Below the pieces are notes generated by a model. That model was not told where the DNA came from and made no database searches. It saw nothing but the letters and a program-made list of their open reading frames with translations. Below are positions 1,446 through 63,704 of a stretch of 64,000 nucleotides of DNA, piece after piece. Origin of the DNA: a virus; IMG/VR virus record IMGVR_UViG_3300008262_000231, positions 34,724-98,723 of that record; one strand, written 5' to 3'. The position numbers and the translations under genes were made by a program. Numbering within the stretch: position 1 is the stretch's first letter; the number at the start of each line of letters is the position of its first letter.

Positions 1446-1739
1446 ATGGAAATCCCTGAAGATTCTAAAGATGGAAAATGGAAAGATTTTAACGAATTAG
1501 CGGAAAAAGAAGGATTTAGATTACCTACTTTAAAAGAGCTTCGGTATTTGTATTCATTGAAAAAAGATCTTGAAATTGGATCTTTTCCTGGTAGTTGGTT
1601 TTGGTCCTCTGAAGTCATGAAACTAAACGTATATTCTTCTGGATCTAAATATTACTTTAAGGATTTTAGGGGAGGAATAGAAGATTGGGAATATGGAAAT
1701 AGTCCCCATGCTCTTCTCATAAGAGTTTACGATAAATAA
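1446..1739 (+). CDS. DUF1566-like protein, short (second half)
   Basis: This 97-residue frame begins directly after the TAA of the preceding frame and is in phase with it. It contains GFRLPTLKELRYL and FWSSE, the same pair of motifs as its two neighbours, and ends in ALLIRVYDK, resembling the usual DUF1566 C-terminal strand. The N-terminal strand of the domain seems to be missing, which fits either a truncated duplicate or the second half of a two-domain protein. A hairpin terminator follows within about 20 bases. Function unknown. Confidence 0.6.
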   Translation: MEIPEDSKDGKWKDFNELAEKEGFRLPTLKELRYLYSLKKDLEIGSFPGSWFWSSEVMKLNVYSSGSKYYFKDFRGGIEDWEYGNSPHALLIRVYDK

Positions 1740-1749
1740 CCACACAAAA

Positions 1750-1776
1750 AAACCAGAATCCTTTGGATCCTGGTTT
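1750..1776. terminator. Hairpin terminator between convergent genes
   Basis: AACCAGAATCC and GGATCCTGGTT pair around a TTT loop with one mismatch. An A-run lies on the left and a T-rich flank on the right, so it could act in both directions. It sits between the + strand DUF1566 genes and the minus-strand methyltransferase. Confidence 0.75.
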
Positions 1777-1797
1777 ATCTTAAATTTATTTAATATA

Positions 1798-2805
1798 TTA
1801 TTTTAATTTCTTTCTTAAAATAACTCCCGCTTGATAAGAAGGAACAGGAACACCTGGATACATTTTAGGGTAAGTTCTCATGAATAGTGTTTCCGGAATG
1901 TGTCTGTGCATATAAAGACCGTAATATTCCATATCTGGATTATTCTTAAGTACTTCGTCCATAATCATAGAAGATAGTAAATAAGGCTTTTTATTCTGAA
2001 TCATGTCCTTGATCAAAGTAACGAAGTATCCACCTGGCTTTAAAAATTCAATACCTTGGGTGTACATACCATTAACAAGATCCCAATATTCGCTTCCTTT
2101 AGTTAGACCGATATTATTTGGATGCTCATAATCGAAAGTTTTATCATTTAAAGTTCCATCTGCATTTTTAGCCATTCCTCTTTGTGGAGCATCTGAAGAT
2201 TTTCCACTTAATTTAGGGTATGGAGTACCGTTAACAATTAGAGATAATTGTCCTCTTTTAATTCCTGAACTCTCTAGATTTTCTGTGGTATTTCTAGCAT
2301 CTCCCTGAACTAGCTTAGCAGTAACATCAGTTCTTTCTACCTGAGCTGCAATGTTGTTATAAGCAATCTGTGGATACTCTAGCTCAACTCCGATTGAATT
2401 TCTACCGTTATTATATGCTTCAACTAAAGTCGTCCCTGTACCACACGTAGGATCAAATACCCAATCCCCTGGTTCTGTTAGATTCTGGATTGCCCATCTG
2501 TACCCTTGCCAGTGTCCTGGACATAGGTGTTTATCCTCTTGTTTAGGATAATACTTATATCTTGCAGATTGAGAATAGTATTTATCTCTTTGTGTATCAT
2601 AGATTTCACCTAAGAAGTTTTGGGTGTAATCTGTAGTGTGATAGTCAGAAGGCAATTCCATTCTTACCAAAAGTTCTTCCGTAGGAGTTATATCGTTTCT
2701 ATAAACGCTTTTATCCTTAGGATCTTTTTTGATCTTTTCTACAGGAGCTGGAGCTTCTTTAGGTTTAGTTTTGTCCTCGAAAGGGACTTGTTTCATTTCA
2801 ATCAT
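1798..2805 (-). CDS. DNA methyltransferase (N4/N6 amino type)
   Basis: This 335-residue protein is an SAM-dependent DNA amino-methyltransferase. Motif I is DPTCGTGTT (residues 118-126), followed by an acidic strand GVELEYPQ (139-146). The catalytic motif IV position reads NGTPYPKL (192-199) in place of the usual (S/D)PPYP. The first 45 residues are a charged Lys/Pro-rich segment. It is the only minus-strand gene in the window and converges on the hairpin terminator at 1750-1776, so it probably has its own control. A likely role is self-modification against host restriction. Whether the altered motif IV is active is uncertain. Confidence 0.8.
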   Translation of the reverse strand: MIEMKQVPFEDKTKPKEAPAPVEKIKKDPKDKSVYRNDITPTEELLVRMELPSDYHTTDYTQNFLGEIYDTQRDKYYSQSARYKYYPKQEDKHLCPGHWQGYRWAIQNLTEPGDWVFDPTCGTGTTLVEAYNNGRNSIGVELEYPQIAYNNIAAQVERTDVTAKLVQGDARNTTENLESSGIKRGQLSLIVNGTPYPKLSGKSSDAPQRGMAKNADGTLNDKTFDYEHPNNIGLTKGSEYWDLVNGMYTQGIEFLKPGGYFVTLIKDMIQNKKPYLLSSMIMDEVLKNNPDMEYYGLYMHRHIPETLFMRTYPKMYPGVPVPSYQAGVILRKKLK

Positions 2806-2866
2806 TTTTTCAATTTTGATAATTATATAATGATTTTTATAGACTATTTGTTTCTAAAAATTTCGG

Positions 2867-2874
2867 GATATATA
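2867..2874 (+). promoter_or_regulatory. GATATATA box (candidate late promoter)
   Basis: GGATATATAAT is preceded by a TTTCG tract and lies 18 bases before the ATG of the SleB-like gene. It belongs to the recurrent intergenic motif described in the findings. Confidence 0.45.
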
Positions 2875-2892
2875 ATAAAAAATTACCTATTA

Positions 2893-3966
2893 ATGACAAA
2901 TTTGGAAAGTTTTTCGGGGTGGAGCTTAAATGAGGGACTATTCTTCTCTGATTTTAAGTGGGTATCTGCACCGAAAAATCTAACTTCTACCCAAAAATCT
3001 TCGATAGAGGGAAAAATGTCAATATTCGGTTCTGATATTATAGACACTGTAAATTTTTCATATACAAGCAGATACTGGGAATCCCTGAAGAAAAGACTAG
3101 GAGAAAATAAGATCCAATTTAAATACGGAAATTCTTCTGCTATTCCTAAGCAATGGATATACTGGAGTGAAAAAGTCATATATTCAGATCAAAGACCTTT
3201 ATTATCTAAGAATTCATCAGGACAGAAAGTCATAGCTTATTATCCATTATCTTATAATGGAGCTGTTCTTGATAAATTTTGGGTGATTGCGATATGGAAA
3301 GGGGAAGATGGAAAAAAATATCTAAGAGAAATGACTCTTAAGGACTTCCTAACTAAGTCAACTAAAGATATTATAGACAAAGATTTTTTATCCACTTCAG
3401 CGGTAAAAACCGACGTAGCTAAACAAAATAAAATAAATAAAAAAGATTATTGGACTTTAATTACAATAATAGCCTGTGAGAATTTTCCAGATCAAAAACA
3501 GGGAATGGCAGATGTTGCACAGTCCATATACAATAGGTACCACGTCAGTGGAAAGCCTTACGGTAAAACTATATCTGAAATCATATTAGCTAAATCCCAA
3601 TACGAACCGGTTACTAAGGGACTAAAAAAAGGAGCAGACTGGAAAAATATAAATGATAAGACTAAAGCTATATCAGTGTATATGAAGACAATTGGGGTTG
3701 ATATTAAGAATGCAACTAAAGCTATAGAATCAGCCATATCAGCTCAGTCCAACAAAACGTATATGGATAATGCAAGGTCCCACGTAAAAACAAGAACCGA
3801 GTTTCTAGCAAATCCCCCTTCTGCTTATTCAGCAGTTAGTCCGGTAGAAAGACCAGAAAAAAATAAAAACAATTCTTTTTTCTGGAATTATGCAGGGAAA
3901 AAGACCTATTATGCCAAAAATGATTTTTCGGCAAAACCTATACCACCAGAAGTCAAAAGTGTTTAA
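2893..3966 (+). CDS. SleB-like cell-wall hydrolase with capsid-targeting-like N-terminus
   Basis: This protein has 357 residues from the ATG at 2893. That start is chosen because it lies just downstream of a GATATATA box; the open frame runs further upstream but would overlap the divergent methyltransferase. From about residue 184 the protein matches the hydrolase family 2 (SleB/CwlJ) pattern: a catalytic Glu in ACENF, then QGMADVAQSIYNR, then KTISEIILAKSQYEPV. These enzymes cleave the glycan strand of peptidoglycan. The N-terminus MTNLESFSGWSLNE then G looks like a tag ending in an L-N-E prohead-protease site. The middle is of unknown fold. I infer a packaged lysis or entry enzyme. Confidence 0.65.
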   Translation: MTNLESFSGWSLNEGLFFSDFKWVSAPKNLTSTQKSSIEGKMSIFGSDIIDTVNFSYTSRYWESLKKRLGENKIQFKYGNSSAIPKQWIYWSEKVIYSDQRPLLSKNSSGQKVIAYYPLSYNGAVLDKFWVIAIWKGEDGKKYLREMTLKDFLTKSTKDIIDKDFLSTSAVKTDVAKQNKINKKDYWTLITIIACENFPDQKQGMADVAQSIYNRYHVSGKPYGKTISEIILAKSQYEPVTKGLKKGADWKNINDKTKAISVYMKTIGVDIKNATKAIESAISAQSNKTYMDNARSHVKTRTEFLANPPSAYSAVSPVERPEKNKNNSFFWNYAGKKTYYAKNDFSAKPIPPEVKSV

Positions 3967-57202: not shown

Positions 57203-57526
57203 ATGATAAAAGACATAAAAGAAAACGAGCTAAGAGAATCTATAGAAAATTCCAAAAAACCAATTCTAATAGATTTTTATGCAGTTTGGTGTGGTCCTTG
57301 TAGAGCAGCAGATCCTTTAGTTAAAGAATTCTCAGAAGAGAATTCTGATTTTGTAGAATTCTATAAAGTTAATGTCGACGAGAATAGATTTATTGCTGAG
57401 GAATACGGGATAAGAAATATTCCTAGCTTTATTGTTTTAGAGAACGGGGAAGTTAAAAGTAAATTGGTTGGTTCCCCAACTAAAGAGAAATTAGAGGATC
57501 TAATTTCTGAATATAAATCAAACTAA
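57203..57526 (+). CDS. Thioredoxin
   Basis: This is a 107-residue thioredoxin with the active site WCGPC at residues 29-33, the cis-Pro region NIPSFIVLENGEV and the usual length. It would reduce disulfides and could serve ribonucleotide reductase or another phage enzyme. The stop overlaps the next ATG by one base, so it is co-translated with the nucleotidyltransferase gene. Confidence 0.92.
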   Translation: MIKDIKENELRESIENSKKPILIDFYAVWCGPCRAADPLVKEFSEENSDFVEFYKVNVDENRFIAEEYGIRNIPSFIVLENGEVKSKLVGSPTKEKLEDLISEYKSN

Positions 57527-58464
57527 TGGAAAAAGGGTACTTAAGATTTGGAGATTTTTTAAAACTATTTGAAGGAGGAGCTGCTATAAAGACCGCAAGG
57601 AAAATTAGAGAGGATGAATTCCCAAAAACTTTAGAAAGTATCCAAAATGATTTATTACCTCTTTTAGGGATAGACTCTCTAAAAATAGGTGAAGAATATA
57701 TCATAATAGGAAGTATAGGAAAAAAGAAAAATCCTTCGGACGAATCCGGGGATTTAGATTTAGGGTATGATGGAAATATTTTTTCTAAGAAAAATGGAAT
57801 TACATATAAAGATTCTTCCAAGAAGGTATATGAGATTTTAACTTCTGACCTTAAAGAGTTATTAGGATTTGAACCCGAAATAAATTTCCTTAGAGGACTT
57901 AATATAGTAAGTATAGGATGGCCAATAGAAGGAGATCCGGAATTAGGAATAGTTCAATTGGATCTAATCCCTTTATCTTCTATGAAATGGGCTAAGTTTA
58001 TTTATTATTCTCCAGACTACAGATTCGGAGAAAGCAAATATAAATCTGCACATAGGAATTGGCTTTTGTCTGCAATACTTTCAGCAAAAAGAAATGTTTT
58101 GGCTTCTGATGAAGAAGGTGAAGTTTTAGATTACGAATCTCCGGTGATAATACTTAGTGATGGGTTATATTTAAACACTAAAAGCTTCAGAGGGAAATTA
58201 AAAGGAAGACTTAAGAATCCTAAGAAGGTTGAGGGAGGAGAAAAATTCATAACTAACGATCCCCAAGAATTTATAGATTATACATTAGGAAAGGGGTATA
58301 ATCAAGATCAAATTAAAACTTTTGAAGCTCTTCTTAAAATAATAACTTCCCCGGATTTCCCGGATAAGGATAAATTACCAATTATAAAGGAGAGATTTTT
58401 GGAATATATGGAGAGAACTGGTCTTCCAGTTCCTTCTGAAATAAACTATTTGCCTTCTAACTAA
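57526..58464 (+). CDS. Pol-beta-type nucleotidyltransferase with capsid-targeting-like tag
   Basis: This is a 312-residue protein. IIIGSIGKKKNPSDESGDLDLGYD spans residues about 58-82 and supplies the GS motif and the paired Asp of the pol-beta nucleotidyltransferase superfamily; the third acid is in VQLDLIP (about 143-149). A helical C-terminal domain follows. Members add nucleotides to RNA, proteins or small molecules. The N-terminus (YLRFGDFLKLFE then GG) resembles the tagged family and ends in an L-F-E site. It lies before the RNA ligase gene, so an RNA-repair partnership is possible but not shown. Confidence 0.6.
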   Translation: MEKGYLRFGDFLKLFEGGAAIKTARKIREDEFPKTLESIQNDLLPLLGIDSLKIGEEYIIIGSIGKKKNPSDESGDLDLGYDGNIFSKKNGITYKDSSKKVYEILTSDLKELLGFEPEINFLRGLNIVSIGWPIEGDPELGIVQLDLIPLSSMKWAKFIYYSPDYRFGESKYKSAHRNWLLSAILSAKRNVLASDEEGEVLDYESPVIILSDGLYLNTKSFRGKLKGRLKNPKKVEGGEKFITNDPQEFIDYTLGKGYNQDQIKTFEALLKIITSPDFPDKDKLPIIKERFLEYMERTGLPVPSEINYLPSN

Positions 58465-58516: not shown

Positions 58517-58942
58517 ATGTCAGGAATATCACATCTTTACGATCTATATAACAAAAAAGGACAAGAGTTTATAGAGAAATTGTTTAATACCTACGTTACT
58601 GTAAACGAGAAAATGGACGGTTCTGCTTTTATTTTCGAAAGGGGTTTAGAAACTGGTAAATTTAAATTCTATAAGAGGGATCAGAGAAATCCAATAACAA
58701 TGGTGGATAGAACTCTGATGAAATACTATGAAGTTCCTATCCAATATATAGAATCTCTTCCCCCACACATATTAAATAAAATACCGAGAGGGTGGAAATT
58801 CGGTCTTGAATATTTTTCAAATCCACAGCCAGTAGAGATTGCTTATGATAGAATTCCTAAGAATAACCTAATTCTTTCATATGTTCATGTTCTAGACGAA
58901 TCTGGTACAGTATGTAGAACTATCCAGGAAAAGGAAAATTAG
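58517..58942 (+). CDS. RNA ligase, N-terminal part
   Basis: The 141-residue open frame holds the ligase nucleotidyltransferase core. VNEKMDGSAFIFERG carries the predicted AMP-accepting Lys32; KFYKRDQRNP and PRGWKFGLEYFSN would be motifs III and IIIa. It ends at TAG 58940-58942 within a region rich in A and G (AGGAAAAGGAAAATTAG), while the homologous sequence continues in the next frame from about 58921. If no frameshift occurs, the product would lack motif IV and the C-terminal half. Confidence 0.7.
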   Translation: MSGISHLYDLYNKKGQEFIEKLFNTYVTVNEKMDGSAFIFERGLETGKFKFYKRDQRNPITMVDRTLMKYYEVPIQYIESLPPHILNKIPRGWKFGLEYFSNPQPVEIAYDRIPKNNLILSYVHVLDESGTVCRTIQEKEN

Positions 58943-59973
58943 ATACATGGGCTGATCTATTAGGAATAGAAAGACCCCCTATTATTTTCCAAGGAGAATT
59001 AGATGACGATCAAAAGAATAAAATTCTAGAGTTTTTAAGAACTCCTTTTAACGAGTTAGTAGAGGAATTTAAAACCAAAAGTTTTGTTAGGTTCATAATA
59101 GGTATATTAAATCCTGAATTAAAAAAGACCGCACTAAACGAGGATCTAGATAAAGCTATAGAAGGTATAGTTTTTAGATTTGGGGATCCTGCAGGAGGGG
59201 ATCCGGTTCTTTCTAAAATGGTAGATCCTTTGTTTACCGAGATAGCAAAATCCAAAGCTCAGAAAAGAAGAGAAGAAAAACCTAGTGATTTTTTAGGGAT
59301 AACCCTAATAGATGTAATGAATTTTATTCTGGAAAAAGGAGTAGATTCTTTCGAATGCAAAGGAGATACTAACGACGAAAGATATGTTTCTTTCATGTCT
59401 TCTGTATTTGTGGAATTTCTTAGCGAGTATTCAGAAATGTACAAGGGAGCAGATTTCCAAGAACCTGAATACCTAAAGAAAGATGAATTTAGAATAAATA
59501 AAAAATTCATAACAAATAAAGATGTTATAAACTATCTAGAAGAAGACGAATCTTTTGAATCCCTGTTTAAACTAATGCTAAATTCTTTTAGAAAGATAAA
59601 GAAGAGAGCAGGTGGATTAATAAACCAAGGTGCTTTAGAACAATTCAATTTATTGGTTACCGACATTCAAAAAAGAGTAGAAAATGTAAATGAATCTTTT
59701 GTTTTCGAATCGGATTTACCGACTTTCCTAGATTTCAAAAGGAAAAATTCGGACAAGAATAAAGTTAACTATGTTACCGAAGAAACCGAAGGAGAAAAAG
59801 AAGAAGATCCTTTTTATTCTTATAATGAATTTATATCTGCTTTAGAAACTATAGATACCTCAAAAAAACCAAAATCTGATTTAATCGAGGAAGAAAAAGA
59901 ACCAGAAAAGGAATTAGAAGATGTAAATATCCTAATAGGAAGATTCCAGCCATTCCATAACGGATATCGTTAA
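58921..59973 (+). CDS. RNA ligase C-terminal part plus start of nucleotidyltransferase domain
   Basis: This is the continuation in the -1 frame. KLDTWADLLGIERPPIIFQG and the motif IV-like AIEGIVFRFGDP complete the ligase domain. A helical region of about 150 residues follows (LIDVMNFILEKGVDSF, then a charged linker with many Glu/Lys), and the frame ends in VNILIGRFQPFHNGY, the signature start of NMN-adenylyltransferase-like enzymes with the second His of HxGH replaced by Tyr. The first in-frame ATG is only at 59218, so the 5' 300 bases need a frameshift to be translated. TAA follows two codons after the signature. Confidence 0.6.
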   Translation, partial: YPGKGKLDTWADLLGIERPPIIFQGELDDDQKNKILEFLRTPFNELVEEFKTKSFVRFIIGILNPELKKTALNEDLDKAIEGIVFRFGDPAGGDPVLSKMVDPLFTEIAKSKAQKRREEKPSDFLGITLIDVMNFILEKGVDSFECKGDTNDERYVSFMSSVFVEFLSEYSEMYKGADFQEPEYLKKDEFRINKKFITNKDVINYLEEDESFESLFKLMLNSFRKIKKRAGGLINQGALEQFNLLVTDIQKRVENVNESFVFESDLPTFLDFKRKNSDKNKVNYVTEETEGEKEEDPFYSYNEFISALETIDTSKKPKSDLIEEEKEPEKELEDVNILIGRFQPFHNGYR

Positions 59974-60298
59974 TAGAGGACTTTTAGGTGTAATATATGG
60001 AGCTGCTAAATCTCACGGATTCAATGTCAAATCCATAGGAGCAGGAGAAGATAGAATATTAGATTATAGAAAACAGATAGACTATTTAAAAAAGAACGGA
60101 TCTGATTTCCCTAAAGACATCGAAATAGTGAAAACCCCTAGAGCCACTAGTGCTACAGAGGTAAGAGAAAAAATAAAAAATGAAGACTTTACTTCTTTTA
60201 GAAAATTAGTCCCTCCTTCTATATCTTCACTCTATAATTCATTAGTAACTGGGATGAATTCCCACGTTAAGACTAATGAATCTTTAGAAAGTGAATAG
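59973..60298 (+). pseudogene. Orphan C-terminal part of NMN-adenylyltransferase-like domain
   Basis: This open frame follows in the third phase without an ATG near its start. It reads NRGLLGVIYGAAKSHGFNVK, SIGAGEDRILDYRKQIDYLK and ATSATEVREKI, the last being the (I/A)SxTxxR-like motif of NMN-adenylyltransferase-type enzymes. Compared with the usual domain, roughly 40-60 residues between the HxGH motif and this part are missing. The stretch 59974-60309 therefore holds gene remains and is not empty intergenic DNA. Confidence 0.55.
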
Positions 60299-60309: not shown

Positions 60310-61164
60310 ATGGAAAAATTAAAATCTTTTTACGAATTCTTAAGTATTACAGAGTCTTTAGCAAAAGAAGGATCTGAAATACCGCCAGATCTAACTAAAA
60401 GCTCAGCTCCTTATTCTCCCACATCAGAAGCTCCAGAGAAATCTTCTTCTACTCAAACCTTAAATTTGGATAAATATGAGGAATATGGAATTGATCCTGT
60501 AGAGATATCAAAGGATTTTCAGAATATTGCTAAAGGTGGTTACGCTTGGAAAGATGGAAGTTCAGGTATGCCAGTAGACATTTATTTTAAATCCGAATCC
60601 CCACTATTTAAAAAACCATCAGATGGAAGCACATATTGTACAGGATTTACCTTTGCGGTAGGTTATATTACCTGTCTAAATAGAGGACTTCTGAATGATC
60701 TTACTGATTCAGATATAACTAAAATGCAGAAAATCTGGAATCAAGGGGATGCCAAAACATACCCTAAATTATGTGTTGATGCAATAGCTAATACTGAATA
60801 TTCTAACGGTAAAACATTAGGGGAAGAGGTCACTATAGAAAATGTAAAATCTGGGGATTTTTGCCAAATATGGAGAAATACAGGATTCGGACATAGTGTC
60901 ATAGTTCTGGAAATGATTAAGAAAGACGGTAAAACTGTAGGTATAAAATACTACAGTTCTAATACTAAAATTAACCCCCAAACTAAAAGATCTGGCCCTG
61001 GAGAAAATACAGAATATTTTACTGATGCCACCGGAATGGGAGGAAAAGTTCTTAGAAGTAAAACCTATTTTTCAAGAATATCCCCATTAGCCGTAAACAT
61101 CGAAGATGCAACAAAAACAATTGTGAATTCGGTTAAAAGCTTTGCTGGAAGTTTAGGAGATTAA
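60310..61164 (+). CDS. Cys/His peptidase-like protein with capsid-targeting-like N-terminus
   Basis: This is a 284-residue protein. STYCTGFTFAVGY has the candidate nucleophile Cys110; SGDFCQIWRNTGFGHSVIVL has the candidate base His195; both fit an NlpC/P60- or CHAP-like fold. Residues 1-15 (MEKLKSFYEFLSITE) resemble the shared tag with an I-T-E site, and residues 16-55 form a Ser/Pro/Glu linker. It is unlike the peptidase at 409 in its catalytic domain, so two different Cys/His enzymes carry the same kind of tag. Likely a virion-borne cell-wall enzyme. Confidence 0.6.
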   Translation: MEKLKSFYEFLSITESLAKEGSEIPPDLTKSSAPYSPTSEAPEKSSSTQTLNLDKYEEYGIDPVEISKDFQNIAKGGYAWKDGSSGMPVDIYFKSESPLFKKPSDGSTYCTGFTFAVGYITCLNRGLLNDLTDSDITKMQKIWNQGDAKTYPKLCVDAIANTEYSNGKTLGEEVTIENVKSGDFCQIWRNTGFGHSVIVLEMIKKDGKTVGIKYYSSNTKINPQTKRSGPGENTEYFTDATGMGGKVLRSKTYFSRISPLAVNIEDATKTIVNSVKSFAGSLGD

Positions 61165-61169
61165 ATAAA

Positions 61170-61835
61170 ATGGGAAAAATAAAAAAATTCTTGGATTTCG
61201 TAAATGAAGGCTTCTTTGATAATGAAGTTTTGGGAAATTTTGGGTCTATAATTTCAAATACATCCCGAAATTACGGGAGAGTAAATGAATTACCTACTAC
61301 TTTAGATACTGAATCCCCAAGTCCTTTTTCGACATCTAGAAATGATGAAACTTCTTGCGAAGGAAATGATTGTTGGACTTGGTTCGGAAAAGAAAAATTC
61401 TGGAACGGAGTTAATAAAGTAAATAATAAAACAGTTCCTAAAATTACTATAGATAAGGACCCAAAAAGTTTTAATATAACTTACGAAGGACCACCTTCTG
61501 GATTTCTGCTTAAGCATAAAAACGGAGGAAAAGGAGATACAATTCATCAGCTACTTAATGTATTGACATTAGAATTAAATTCTTATCTAGAAACTATATA
61601 TGCAAAACCGGTTTTAAGCGGAATTAAAATGGATTTAAGGGGAAATAAATTAAGTGTCAGTGTTCCCCTTCAGAGTTCCCCTAAACACTACGAAATCCAC
61701 AGAAGAGGGGGATTAGGACACGGAGGGGATTTTTCTGGACTTATTAAATACGAGTCTAATCCAGGATACGAAGAAGCAATACATAAATCCGGAAGACTAA
61801 CTGAAAAATTTGTCATCTTCCATAAATCAATTTAA
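61170..61835 (+). CDS. Tagged protein of unknown function (221 aa)
   Basis: The N-terminus MGKIKKFLDFVNE then GFFDNEVLGNFGSII is nearly the same as in the peptidase at 409 and the SGNH protein at 61839. The C-terminal about 130 residues contain GFLLKHKNGGKGDTIHQLL and HRRGGLGHGGDFSGLI, with several His that could bind metal, but no family is clear. An acidic Cys pair (ETSCEGNDCW) lies near residue 70. The tag suggests packaging in the head. An enzymatic role is possible but unproven. Confidence 0.55.
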   Translation: MGKIKKFLDFVNEGFFDNEVLGNFGSIISNTSRNYGRVNELPTTLDTESPSPFSTSRNDETSCEGNDCWTWFGKEKFWNGVNKVNNKTVPKITIDKDPKSFNITYEGPPSGFLLKHKNGGKGDTIHQLLNVLTLELNSYLETIYAKPVLSGIKMDLRGNKLSVSVPLQSSPKHYEIHRRGGLGHGGDFSGLIKYESNPGYEEAIHKSGRLTEKFVIFHKSI

Positions 61836-61838
61836 TTA

Positions 61839-63161
61839 ATGAAGAATCTAAAAAAATTTTCTGATTTTATAAATGAAGCATTTCTAGACGATAAAGTACT
61901 TTCTACGTTCGGAGCTATAATTAACAATAGAAAAGATTATTCATATTCAGAATCTCCTTCTATTGTTTCCTACGGAAATCCTGGATCGATAAATAAAACT
62001 TTGGTTCCCATTAAAAACACAGATCCCAAGAATATTTTATTTATAGGGGATTCACATACTGCTATTAAGAACAAAGAGGGAAAAGCAGTAACCTACACCT
62101 TTCCTAATATATTAAAAAAAGAATTAGAGCCAAATGGATATAAAATAGACGTCTTGGCTCTCGGAGGAATGACTACCCAATGGATGCTTGATAATCTTCC
62201 TAATCAGCTAAAAAATAAAAAATACGATAGGGTTTACATCTACGGGGGAGCAAACGATGCTGCAAATTCTAGTATTACCCTAGATAAAGCGTTATCCAAT
62301 ATACAAAAGATGGTAGATCTTTCCAGAAATAATGGAGCTGATGTATTTGTAAATCAGGGTTATATTATCGAAGGAGAAAATGGAAAATTTGGAAATTGGA
62401 AAAAAATGTCAATTTCAGGTACTCTTCTCAAAAAACAAGAAGAATGGATACCTTACATAGAAAGAAAAAAAGAACTTCAGAGAAGAATACCTTTAGAAAT
62501 AAAAAATTCTAATTTCATTTCTCCTTACGATTTAAAAGGATTAACTTCCGATGGAATACATGCTAATTCTGAGGGACAAAAGATTGTAGCTAAAATTTTC
62601 TCTGACTCCATAAAAAACACTTCATCTTCTTCAGAAAACTATAAATCTATTTCTAGTCCTAGAGTAGGCCCAGCAGGTAAAAGTATAGTTATAGGAGATT
62701 CATTATCTCCCAACGTAGCAAAGTGTTCACAAGCTGATTTAATAAGTAGCACAGGAGGTTCTTCTTCTCTTTGGAAAGGAGGAATAGCAATAGGAACCTT
62801 ATTGGATTATGTAAAATCTTACGGAAAAACTGATGCTACTATTAAAAATGTTGTGATATCCATAGGAACAAATGGTATATTCGGTAGAAGCACAGACACG
62901 GTAAATAAATTAATGGATGAGTTAAAGAAAAAATTCCCAAATGCAAAAGTTTTAGTTGTAAAAGGAACTTACGGTCCAAAAGCTACATGGTCCCCTGCTT
63001 TAACTAAGGTTAGTCAAACTACAGTAGATAATTACTATTCAGATTTTTCTAATAAAGGAGCTTTCGTAGTTCCTACTGCGATTGGGAATCAAAAAGATGC
63101 TCATAACTATACGGATATATACACTACTATCGGAAAAGAGATAGACGCTAATCTGAGTTAA
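61839..63161 (+). CDS. Tandem SGNH-hydrolase protein with capsid-targeting-like N-terminus
   Basis: This is a 440-residue protein with two SGNH (GDSL-like) hydrolase domains. The first has NILFIGDSHTA (Ser72), YIYGGANDA (about 134-141) and SDGIHANSEGQ (Asp238, His241). The second has KSIVIGDSLSP (Ser288), ISIGTNGIFG (about 340-349) and a KDAHNYTD end with Asp and His. Such esterases remove acyl groups from polysaccharides or peptidoglycan. The tag MKNLKKFSDFINE then AFLDDKVLSTFG matches its two neighbours. It may deacetylate cell-wall sugars so that the tagged hydrolases can act. Confidence 0.7.
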   Translation: MKNLKKFSDFINEAFLDDKVLSTFGAIINNRKDYSYSESPSIVSYGNPGSINKTLVPIKNTDPKNILFIGDSHTAIKNKEGKAVTYTFPNILKKELEPNGYKIDVLALGGMTTQWMLDNLPNQLKNKKYDRVYIYGGANDAANSSITLDKALSNIQKMVDLSRNNGADVFVNQGYIIEGENGKFGNWKKMSISGTLLKKQEEWIPYIERKKELQRRIPLEIKNSNFISPYDLKGLTSDGIHANSEGQKIVAKIFSDSIKNTSSSSENYKSISSPRVGPAGKSIVIGDSLSPNVAKCSQADLISSTGGSSSLWKGGIAIGTLLDYVKSYGKTDATIKNVVISIGTNGIFGRSTDTVNKLMDELKKKFPNAKVLVVKGTYGPKATWSPALTKVSQTTVDNYYSDFSNKGAFVVPTAIGNQKDAHNYTDIYTTIGKEIDANLS

Positions 63162-63173
63162 CTAATATAAAAT

Positions 63174-63704
63174 ATGAAAAATTTATTAAATTTTAGAGGA
63201 TGGGAATCAGTAAATGAAGCTGATGGATTTGGTACTTCCCCTTTTCTTCTAAAAAAAGAAAAAGATCAATATAACTATTTCTTCAACCTAGAGGATAAAA
63301 AAGAAGAAAAAGGATTTCACCTTATAATAGGTAAATACTCAGAAAAAGAAGTTATATCGGGATCTAAGAATTCTTATTGCGTTCTAGGACTATATCAAAT
63401 TTCCGAGGACTTAATATCAGATATTGCAGTAGATAAAGCAGAGATACCTTCTTCTAATAACAATAGATTTAAATCCGATGAAAATGAAACTTCTAGAATT
63501 TTAGAATGCGTTTCTAAATGCCTTTTGGATTATCTAGAAAAAAATTCTAAAGTTAGTCGAATTTATGATGAGATACAGGAAACTCTATTCTTTAAAGGAA
63601 AAGGAAGCTATTTAGAATATATGAAATCTGTTATAGGCCCAGTAATCGGAGATTGGGCTATCCAAGATGGAAGCGATAAAAATTCGGTTTTAATCAGTAG
63701 ATAA
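63174..63704 (+). CDS. Tagged hypothetical protein (176 aa)
   Basis: This 176-residue protein begins MKNLLNFRGWESVNE then A, another form of the shared tag with a V-N-E site. The body has GFHLIIGKYSEKEVISGS and a helical part (RILECVSKCLLDYLEKNSK), with no catalytic motif in view. It closes the right-hand cluster of tagged genes. A head-packaged protein is inferred from the tag only. Confidence 0.55.
   Translation: MKNLLNFRGWESVNEADGFGTSPFLLKKEKDQYNYFFNLEDKKEEKGFHLIIGKYSEKEVISGSKNSYCVLGLYQISEDLISDIAVDKAEIPSSNNNRFKSDENETSRILECVSKCLLDYLEKNSKVSRIYDEIQETLFFKGKGSYLEYMKSVIGPVIGDWAIQDGSDKNSVLISR

Follow-up and report, generated by a model that had tools for sequence, protein, structure and literature searches.

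T4 RNA ligase 2 (gp24.1/rnlB) is an Rnl2-type ligase (Pfam PF09414), and the T4 internal proteins IPI-III and Alt carry a short N-terminal propeptide with the pattern [FY]xx[FY]...[LI]xE (PMC9026906). The capsid-targeting peptides of T4 are 10-19 residues long and follow rules for positions 4 and 7, and the prohead protease cleaves after L/I-X-E (PMC9026906). RlaP is a known RNA-ligase-associated nucleotidyltransferase family (PMC7824862). Other described proteins that resemble parts of the locus analyzed here are archaeal NMNAT and NadM-Nudix, the phage "cytidyltransferases" of PHROG 395/3041, and gp026 of Campylobacter phage CP220 (503 aa), which is annotated as hypothetical.

We analyzed a window of 64,000 nucleotides at the end of a virus record of 98.7 kb (IMG/VR record IMGVR_UViG_3300008262_000231) that contains a gene joining a predicted RNA ligase to a HIGH-superfamily nucleotidyltransferase. 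The ligase half shares motifs I (K-x-D-G), III, IV, and V with T4 Rnl2, as well as the fold and a helical rather than OB C-terminal domain. Unlike T4 Rnl2, it is fused to a HIGH nucleotidyltransferase, it is too divergent for a significant hhalign match to T4 Rnl2 alone, and it coexists, as a distinct paralogue, with RNA ligases of a more typical kind in these phages. The HIGH half shares GRFQPFHxGH, S-x-T-x-x-R, and the fold with archaeal NMNAT and NadM-Nudix, but the fusion has no Nudix partner domain and falls below the NMNAT equivalog cut-offs. The HIGH domain is also shared with PHROG 395/3041, whose examined members are mostly stand-alone or joined to parts other than a ligase. CP220 gp026 has the same domain order, with a weak RNA_ligase match (E=0.029) followed by CTP_transf_like, and its HIGH half matches that of the fusion by hhalign (E=3e-8); it differs in being shorter and very divergent, with an altered HIGH motif (GKFRILTKAH), and is possibly an independent or ancient fusion.

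As in RlaP systems, a pol-beta nucleotidyltransferase is linked to the RNA ligase in the window. Unlike RlaP, this partner has no Pfam match and no hhalign match to T4 nrdC.11, which we take to be T4 RlaP, and its identification as RlaP was not supported. Many ORFs of the record share the propeptide pattern of the T4 internal proteins; the difference from T4 is that far more proteins bear the pattern, putative RNA-processing enzymes among them, and that their packaging is a prediction.

The window copy of the ligase-HIGH gene

The window copy is broken into three frame pieces. The pieces and their surroundings are listed below by window position, with a slash marking the putative cleavage point.

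57526..58464, + strand: pol-beta-superfamily nucleotidyltransferase, conserved upstream partner, with GS-x(n)-DxD and a third Asp (VQLDLIP)
57526..57573, + strand: putative N-terminal capsid-targeting propeptide of the partner, MEKGYLRFGDFLKLFE/GG
58517..58942, + strand: ligase core, N-terminal piece of the broken fusion ORF, with motifs I and III (EKMDGSAF at 58607-58630)
58930..59967, + strand: second frame piece, with ligase motifs IV and V, the helical domain, the disordered linker, and the start of the HIGH domain (EGIVFRF at 59161-59181; GRFQPFHNG at 59938-59964)
59692..59910, + strand: interdomain linker with two short conserved motifs (AF2 pLDDT <50 for the equivalent residues 393-465)
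59707, + strand: E/S of the linker motif [IV]xE/S..SFx[DE]F
59821-59847, + strand: linker motif YNEFISALE
59966..60298, + strand: third frame piece, with the C-terminal portion of the HIGH domain (SATEVR at 60149-60166)
60310..61164, + strand: neighbour with capsid-targeting-like N-terminus MEKLKSFYEFLSITE/S
61170..61835, + strand: neighbour with capsid-targeting-like N-terminus MGKIKKFLDFVNE/G
61839..63161, + strand: GDSL-type hydrolase with capsid-targeting-like N-terminus MKNLKKFSDFINE/A
63174..63704, + strand: neighbour with capsid-targeting-like N-terminus MKNLLNFRGWESVNE/A, a homologue of which is apparently fused to ligase-HIGH in loci L032 and L072

Both motif sets were found within the interval given in the preliminary description (58517-60298), which is correct and which had been read as one ancestral gene. 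Placed one after another, the three frame pieces align with uninterrupted single ORFs of related phages at 84-94% identity. Against one such ORF (L004), identity was 94% for the first piece (residues 1-140), 87% for the second (residues 139-484), and 89% for the third (residues 541-650). In the alignment to relatives, the first break is a frame slip of one base within an A-rich run, near 58930; the second, near 59967, falls within the HIGH domain and is a deletion of about 170 bases. All of the neighbouring genes that were compared are intact. Upstream of the window, a T4-gp23-like major capsid gene is split in two frames (L104, record positions 1590-3172), giving 317+169 aa here versus one ORF of ~570 aa in relatives. 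Because this essential gene on the same contig is also split, an assembly error may be the source of the break in the fusion gene, with gene decay as the alternative.

The fusion is intact in related huge phages

A copy broken at two places could mean that the apparent fusion is an artefact of the window sequence and that there are really two separate genes. A first scan of viral contigs found 12 relatives, in which both domains lay in one complete ORF except in one case that was cut by the contig end. In a profile scan, the ORF was complete and single in 74 of 80 viral loci, truncated by the contig end in the other 6, and split in none. With 74 uninterrupted ORFs and no split locus, the fusion is not a chance product, and we rejected the artefact explanation, the probability of which is negligible. 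These searches for uninterrupted homologues bear out the single ancestral gene and run counter to the idea that the two domains always occur as separate genes. We conclude that the ligase-HIGH fusion is real and is the normal state in this phage clade.

The intact protein is ~630-690 aa long. The contigs bearing it reach 434 kb, and the carriers are therefore huge phages. An intact fusion is also present in the 462-kb phage LR756500, and in phages of 635-735 kb the ligase-like half alone is retained. When viral structure models were searched by fold, full-length matches were obtained to a 623-aa protein whose sole annotation is cytidyltransferase-like (E=1e-50) and to a second protein of 484 aa. 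The whole fusion was not found in 84,980 bacterial and archaeal genomes, in which all 41 matches were confined to or near the HIGH half. In L032 and L072, the downstream gene of ~180 aa (GFGTSPF family) is apparently joined in frame with the ligase-HIGH ORF, for a product of 855-871 aa.

A literature search, with most subscription journals outside its reach, found no description of a ligase-HIGH fusion or of capsid-targeted RNA enzymes. The fusion is built from already known enzyme domains, in an arrangement that appears to be new.

Conserved active sites and predicted fold of the ligase half

We assessed conservation in 37 copies of the fusion made non-redundant at <90% identity. Nearly all of them keep the four ligase motifs (I, III, IV, and V) as well as the HIGH-type motifs (GRFQPFHxGH, S[AG]TxxR), and residues K32, E98, E216, K234, H481, H484, and R607 are conserved in 35-37 copies. 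The Lys nucleophile of motif I (K32) is present in 36 of the 37, the window copy reading NEKMDG, and motifs III, IV, and V are conserved as LEYF, EGIVFRF, and SKMVDP. The AlphaFold model of the fusion (pLDDT 74) consists of two ordered parts and a disordered linker at residues 393-465. T4 Rnl2 was the PDB fold match of the ligase half (2hvr, E=2e-6; 2hvq and 1s68 were also among the best). An OB fold follows motif V in DNA ligases and capping enzymes and a helical domain in Rnl2; in the AF2 model of the fusion, the chain after motif V is helical. Pfam RNA_ligase was matched in 7 of 9 copies (best 7.6e-5), below the gathering score in most of them (18.6 versus 27 bits in L003; G004 reaches 27 with neighbours). 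These scores, and the hhalign result for T4 Rnl2 alone, count against our main reading (final section). From its sequence motifs and the model, the N-terminal half most likely represents an Rnl2-type, ATP-dependent RNA ligase with a predicted role in RNA-end sealing.

Fusion-bearing genomes also contain one or more other RNA ligases, which likewise counts against our main reading. In the 462-kb phage locus L014, a second ligase-like ORF (1260-2522; SEKLDG ... SEGIVF) with a capsid-targeting-like N-terminus lies directly upstream of the fusion; Pfam and hhalign support for this ORF was absent.

The motif I Lys has been lost in L014, L091, and L015-L017, which include 462-kb and 635-735-kb phages, and the protein persists. 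L015, L016, and L017, from the 635-735-kb phages, encode a stand-alone ligase-like protein in which this Lys is replaced (EDIQGS/ENIQGS), a persistent pseudo-ligase. In L079-L081, the ligase motifs of the fusion are intact and the HIGH motif is ruined (GKFQPFDNLD). Persistence of the protein after loss of the nucleophile argues for an additional, non-catalytic role, at which the loss of one or the other active site in several lineages also hints. The fusion might even act mainly in the structure or scaffolding of the head core, with its enzyme folds retained and catalysis secondary, as could be expected of a protein that can lose one or the other active site and persist, and that has targeting-like motifs in its linker. 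We consider this quite unlikely, as some 36 of 37 copies in the main clade, including those as little as roughly 50% identical, have both active sites conserved.

The HIGH half and the question of NAD

The preliminary description had called the C-terminal domain NMN-adenylyltransferase-like and had proposed a link between RNA repair and NAD. Pfam CTP_transf_like was matched in all 9 copies, the PDB fold match was to nicotinate/NMN adenylyltransferases (E=5e-7), and the HxGH and S-x-T-x-x-R signatures of NMNAT are present in the HIGH half of nearly all of the 37 non-redundant copies. The closest relatives were found to be the phage "cytidyltransferases" of PHROG 395/3041, which all nine copies match (best E 5e-18), and the NMNAT equivalog cut-offs were missed by far (18.9 versus 181 bits for TIGR01527; 21.8 versus 409 for NF003791). 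For these two reasons the "NMN" label is not justified. By its sequence, the domain is assigned to the adenylyl/cytidylyltransferase superfamily with an NMNAT-like signature, so the earlier description holds for superfamily and signature, and NMN specificity is not supported.

If the HIGH domain were nevertheless a true NMN adenylyltransferase, it could act with phage NadV to rebuild NAD depleted by host defence, with the ligase half carried along or using the same adenylate chemistry. The GRFQPFHxGH and S[AG]TxxR signatures and the NMNAT structures among the best fold matches agree with such NAD salvage, as do the presence of NadV (PF04095) in 8 of 12 related genomes and the finding that in G001, G002, and G005 no PF01467 protein other than the fusion was detected. 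Against it, in addition to the failure at every equivalog cut-off, the Trp of archaeal NMNAT that we take to bind nicotinamide by stacking is unmatched in the hmmsearch alignment, which is itself weak in that stretch. Furthermore, G003, G007, and G008, all three possibly incomplete, have the fusion with no NadV found, and NadV-bearing genomes such as W02 have no fused HIGH domain. We regard NAD salvage as somewhat unlikely, though still a serious alternative. Of the proposed link between RNA repair and NAD, the ancestral fusion stands, and the NMN/NAD part is not established, with NadV in only those 8 genomes.

A conserved pol-beta nucleotidyltransferase partner

The pol-beta nucleotidyltransferase noticed next to the ligase in the preliminary description turned out to be a conserved partner, located upstream of the fusion in 68 of 82 loci. 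Its motif residues G62, S63, D76, D78, and D146 are invariant, and all three catalytic acids are kept. The AF2 model of the partner has a pLDDT of 88.8. Its top PDB folds were terminal uridylyltransferases (TUTases), CutA, and pol beta, all below significance (E > 0.001), and searches of PADLOC and of PDB sequences with the partner gave no matches.

In Stenotrophomonas, Xanthomonas, and cyanophages (L099, L098, L100), the HIGH enzyme adjoins ligase-like ORFs (KMDG/KWDG; one is DUF6267), and the Stenotrophomonas and Xanthomonas phage loci have GDxD motifs and baseplate genes nearby. In Stenotrophomonas phage Mendera, Xanthomonas phage X1, and cyanophage S-PRM1, the neighbours of the HIGH enzyme gene look like the partner and the ligase by eye (KMDG, GDxD, a protein starting MGGN). 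They were not accepted as homologues and are left as a resemblance because neither hhalign nor Pfam gives support.

Capsid-targeting-like motifs

All 68 homologues of the partner that were found have the propeptide pattern, mostly with [LIV]xE. The N-terminal piece is 13-24 residues long and ends in xE/GG; its sequence varies and its aromatic spacing is about constant. In the partner model, residues 1-17 are the only segment with pLDDT <50, and the cut is predicted after residue 16.

The N-terminal targeting-like motif was found on 22 of the 91 ORFs of the 98.7-kb record (the partner and 21 others), versus 2.8±1.6 expected from 1000 shuffles of the N-termini (shuffle maximum 9). The excess was absent at residues 32-61 and at the C-terminus in the same record. 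A 434-kb relative has the motif on 43 of 509 ORFs, versus 11.6±3.3 expected. Applied to T4, the pattern recovers IPI, IPII, and IPIII, with no genome-wide excess. N-termini that fit M..[FY]xx[FY]...[ILV]xE/[SAGN] occur in excess on unrelated proteins in the 98.7-kb record and the 434-kb relative (L195-L214), and the bearers include a GDSL hydrolase, a RimK-like ATP-grasp protein, an AAA ATPase, and OmpA-like proteins. A gp21-type protease (PF03420) scored over the cut-off in 9 of 12 related records and was not seen in the 98.7-kb fragment itself. The capsid protein of relatives carries HSLNE/S.

At the N-terminus of the fusion protein, a capsid-targeting-like motif is absent, and the only version is internal, in the linker. 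There, [IV]xE/S..SFx[DE]F is present in 33 and [FY]xxFIsxLE (YNEFISALE) in 32 of the 37 non-redundant copies, and the linker outside both motifs varies without such constraint. The largest phages, whose homologues have a dead ligase, retain a related F-x-D-[FY] stretch. The E/S of the linker sits before the F-x-D-F part, not after it, and YNEFISALE does not match L/I-x-E; both features count against our main reading. The genes near the fusion include primase, SSB, and helicase; these are replication genes and also count against it.

The motifs suggest, as their simplest reading, that the fusion and its partner are packaged in the head. The [FY]xx[FY]...[ILV]xE motif could instead serve sorting or docking and have nothing to do with the capsid, directing proteins, for example, to a phage compartment or a hub protein, which its occurrence on many proteins, including the RimK-like ATP-grasp protein and the AAA ATPase, would fit. 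This appears unlikely to us in view of the close match to the T4 internal-protein targeting sequences, the prohead-protease consensus in which the motif terminates, and the same site in the capsid protein.

A predicted RNA-end repair unit of very large phages

Based on the intact fusion, conserved active sites, folds, synteny, and motif enrichment, we predict a two-headed RNA-end enzyme that acts with a terminal nucleotidyltransferase and is plausibly head-packaged, a prediction whose chances we judge to be evenly balanced. The ligase half would adenylate itself, then the 5' end of the RNA, and would then seal; the C-terminal half would act as a HIGH-superfamily adenylyl/cytidylyltransferase; and the pol-beta partner would add nucleotides to RNA 3' ends. 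The most likely joint function of the fusion and the partner would be to repair or re-tail RNA ends, such as those of cut tRNAs. Both proteins may be drawn into the prohead core via the T4-like targeting motifs and cut after Glu, in the fusion within the linker between the halves. Both might then be ejected with the DNA, and repair would therefore be ready at the start of infection.

More tentatively, and with less than even confidence, we propose that this huge-phage clade packages an RNA-end repair kit, the ligase-HIGH fusion plus the pol-beta enzyme, by T4-like signals. The linker would be cut by the prohead protease, and the kit, ejected together with the DNA, would counter RNA-cleaving defences ahead of any phage gene expression.

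The RNA ligase, the HIGH nucleotidyltransferase, and the terminal nucleotidyltransferase would together make up one conserved unit of very large phages, and such a unit is not described in the consulted passages of two surveys, which cover RNA repair and NAD systems in phages (PMC7824862, PMC9503650). Were the unit packaged in the head, RNA repair by the phage would begin before its genes are transcribed. The targeting motif also provides a testable route to candidate ejected proteins of uncultured huge phages from sequence alone.
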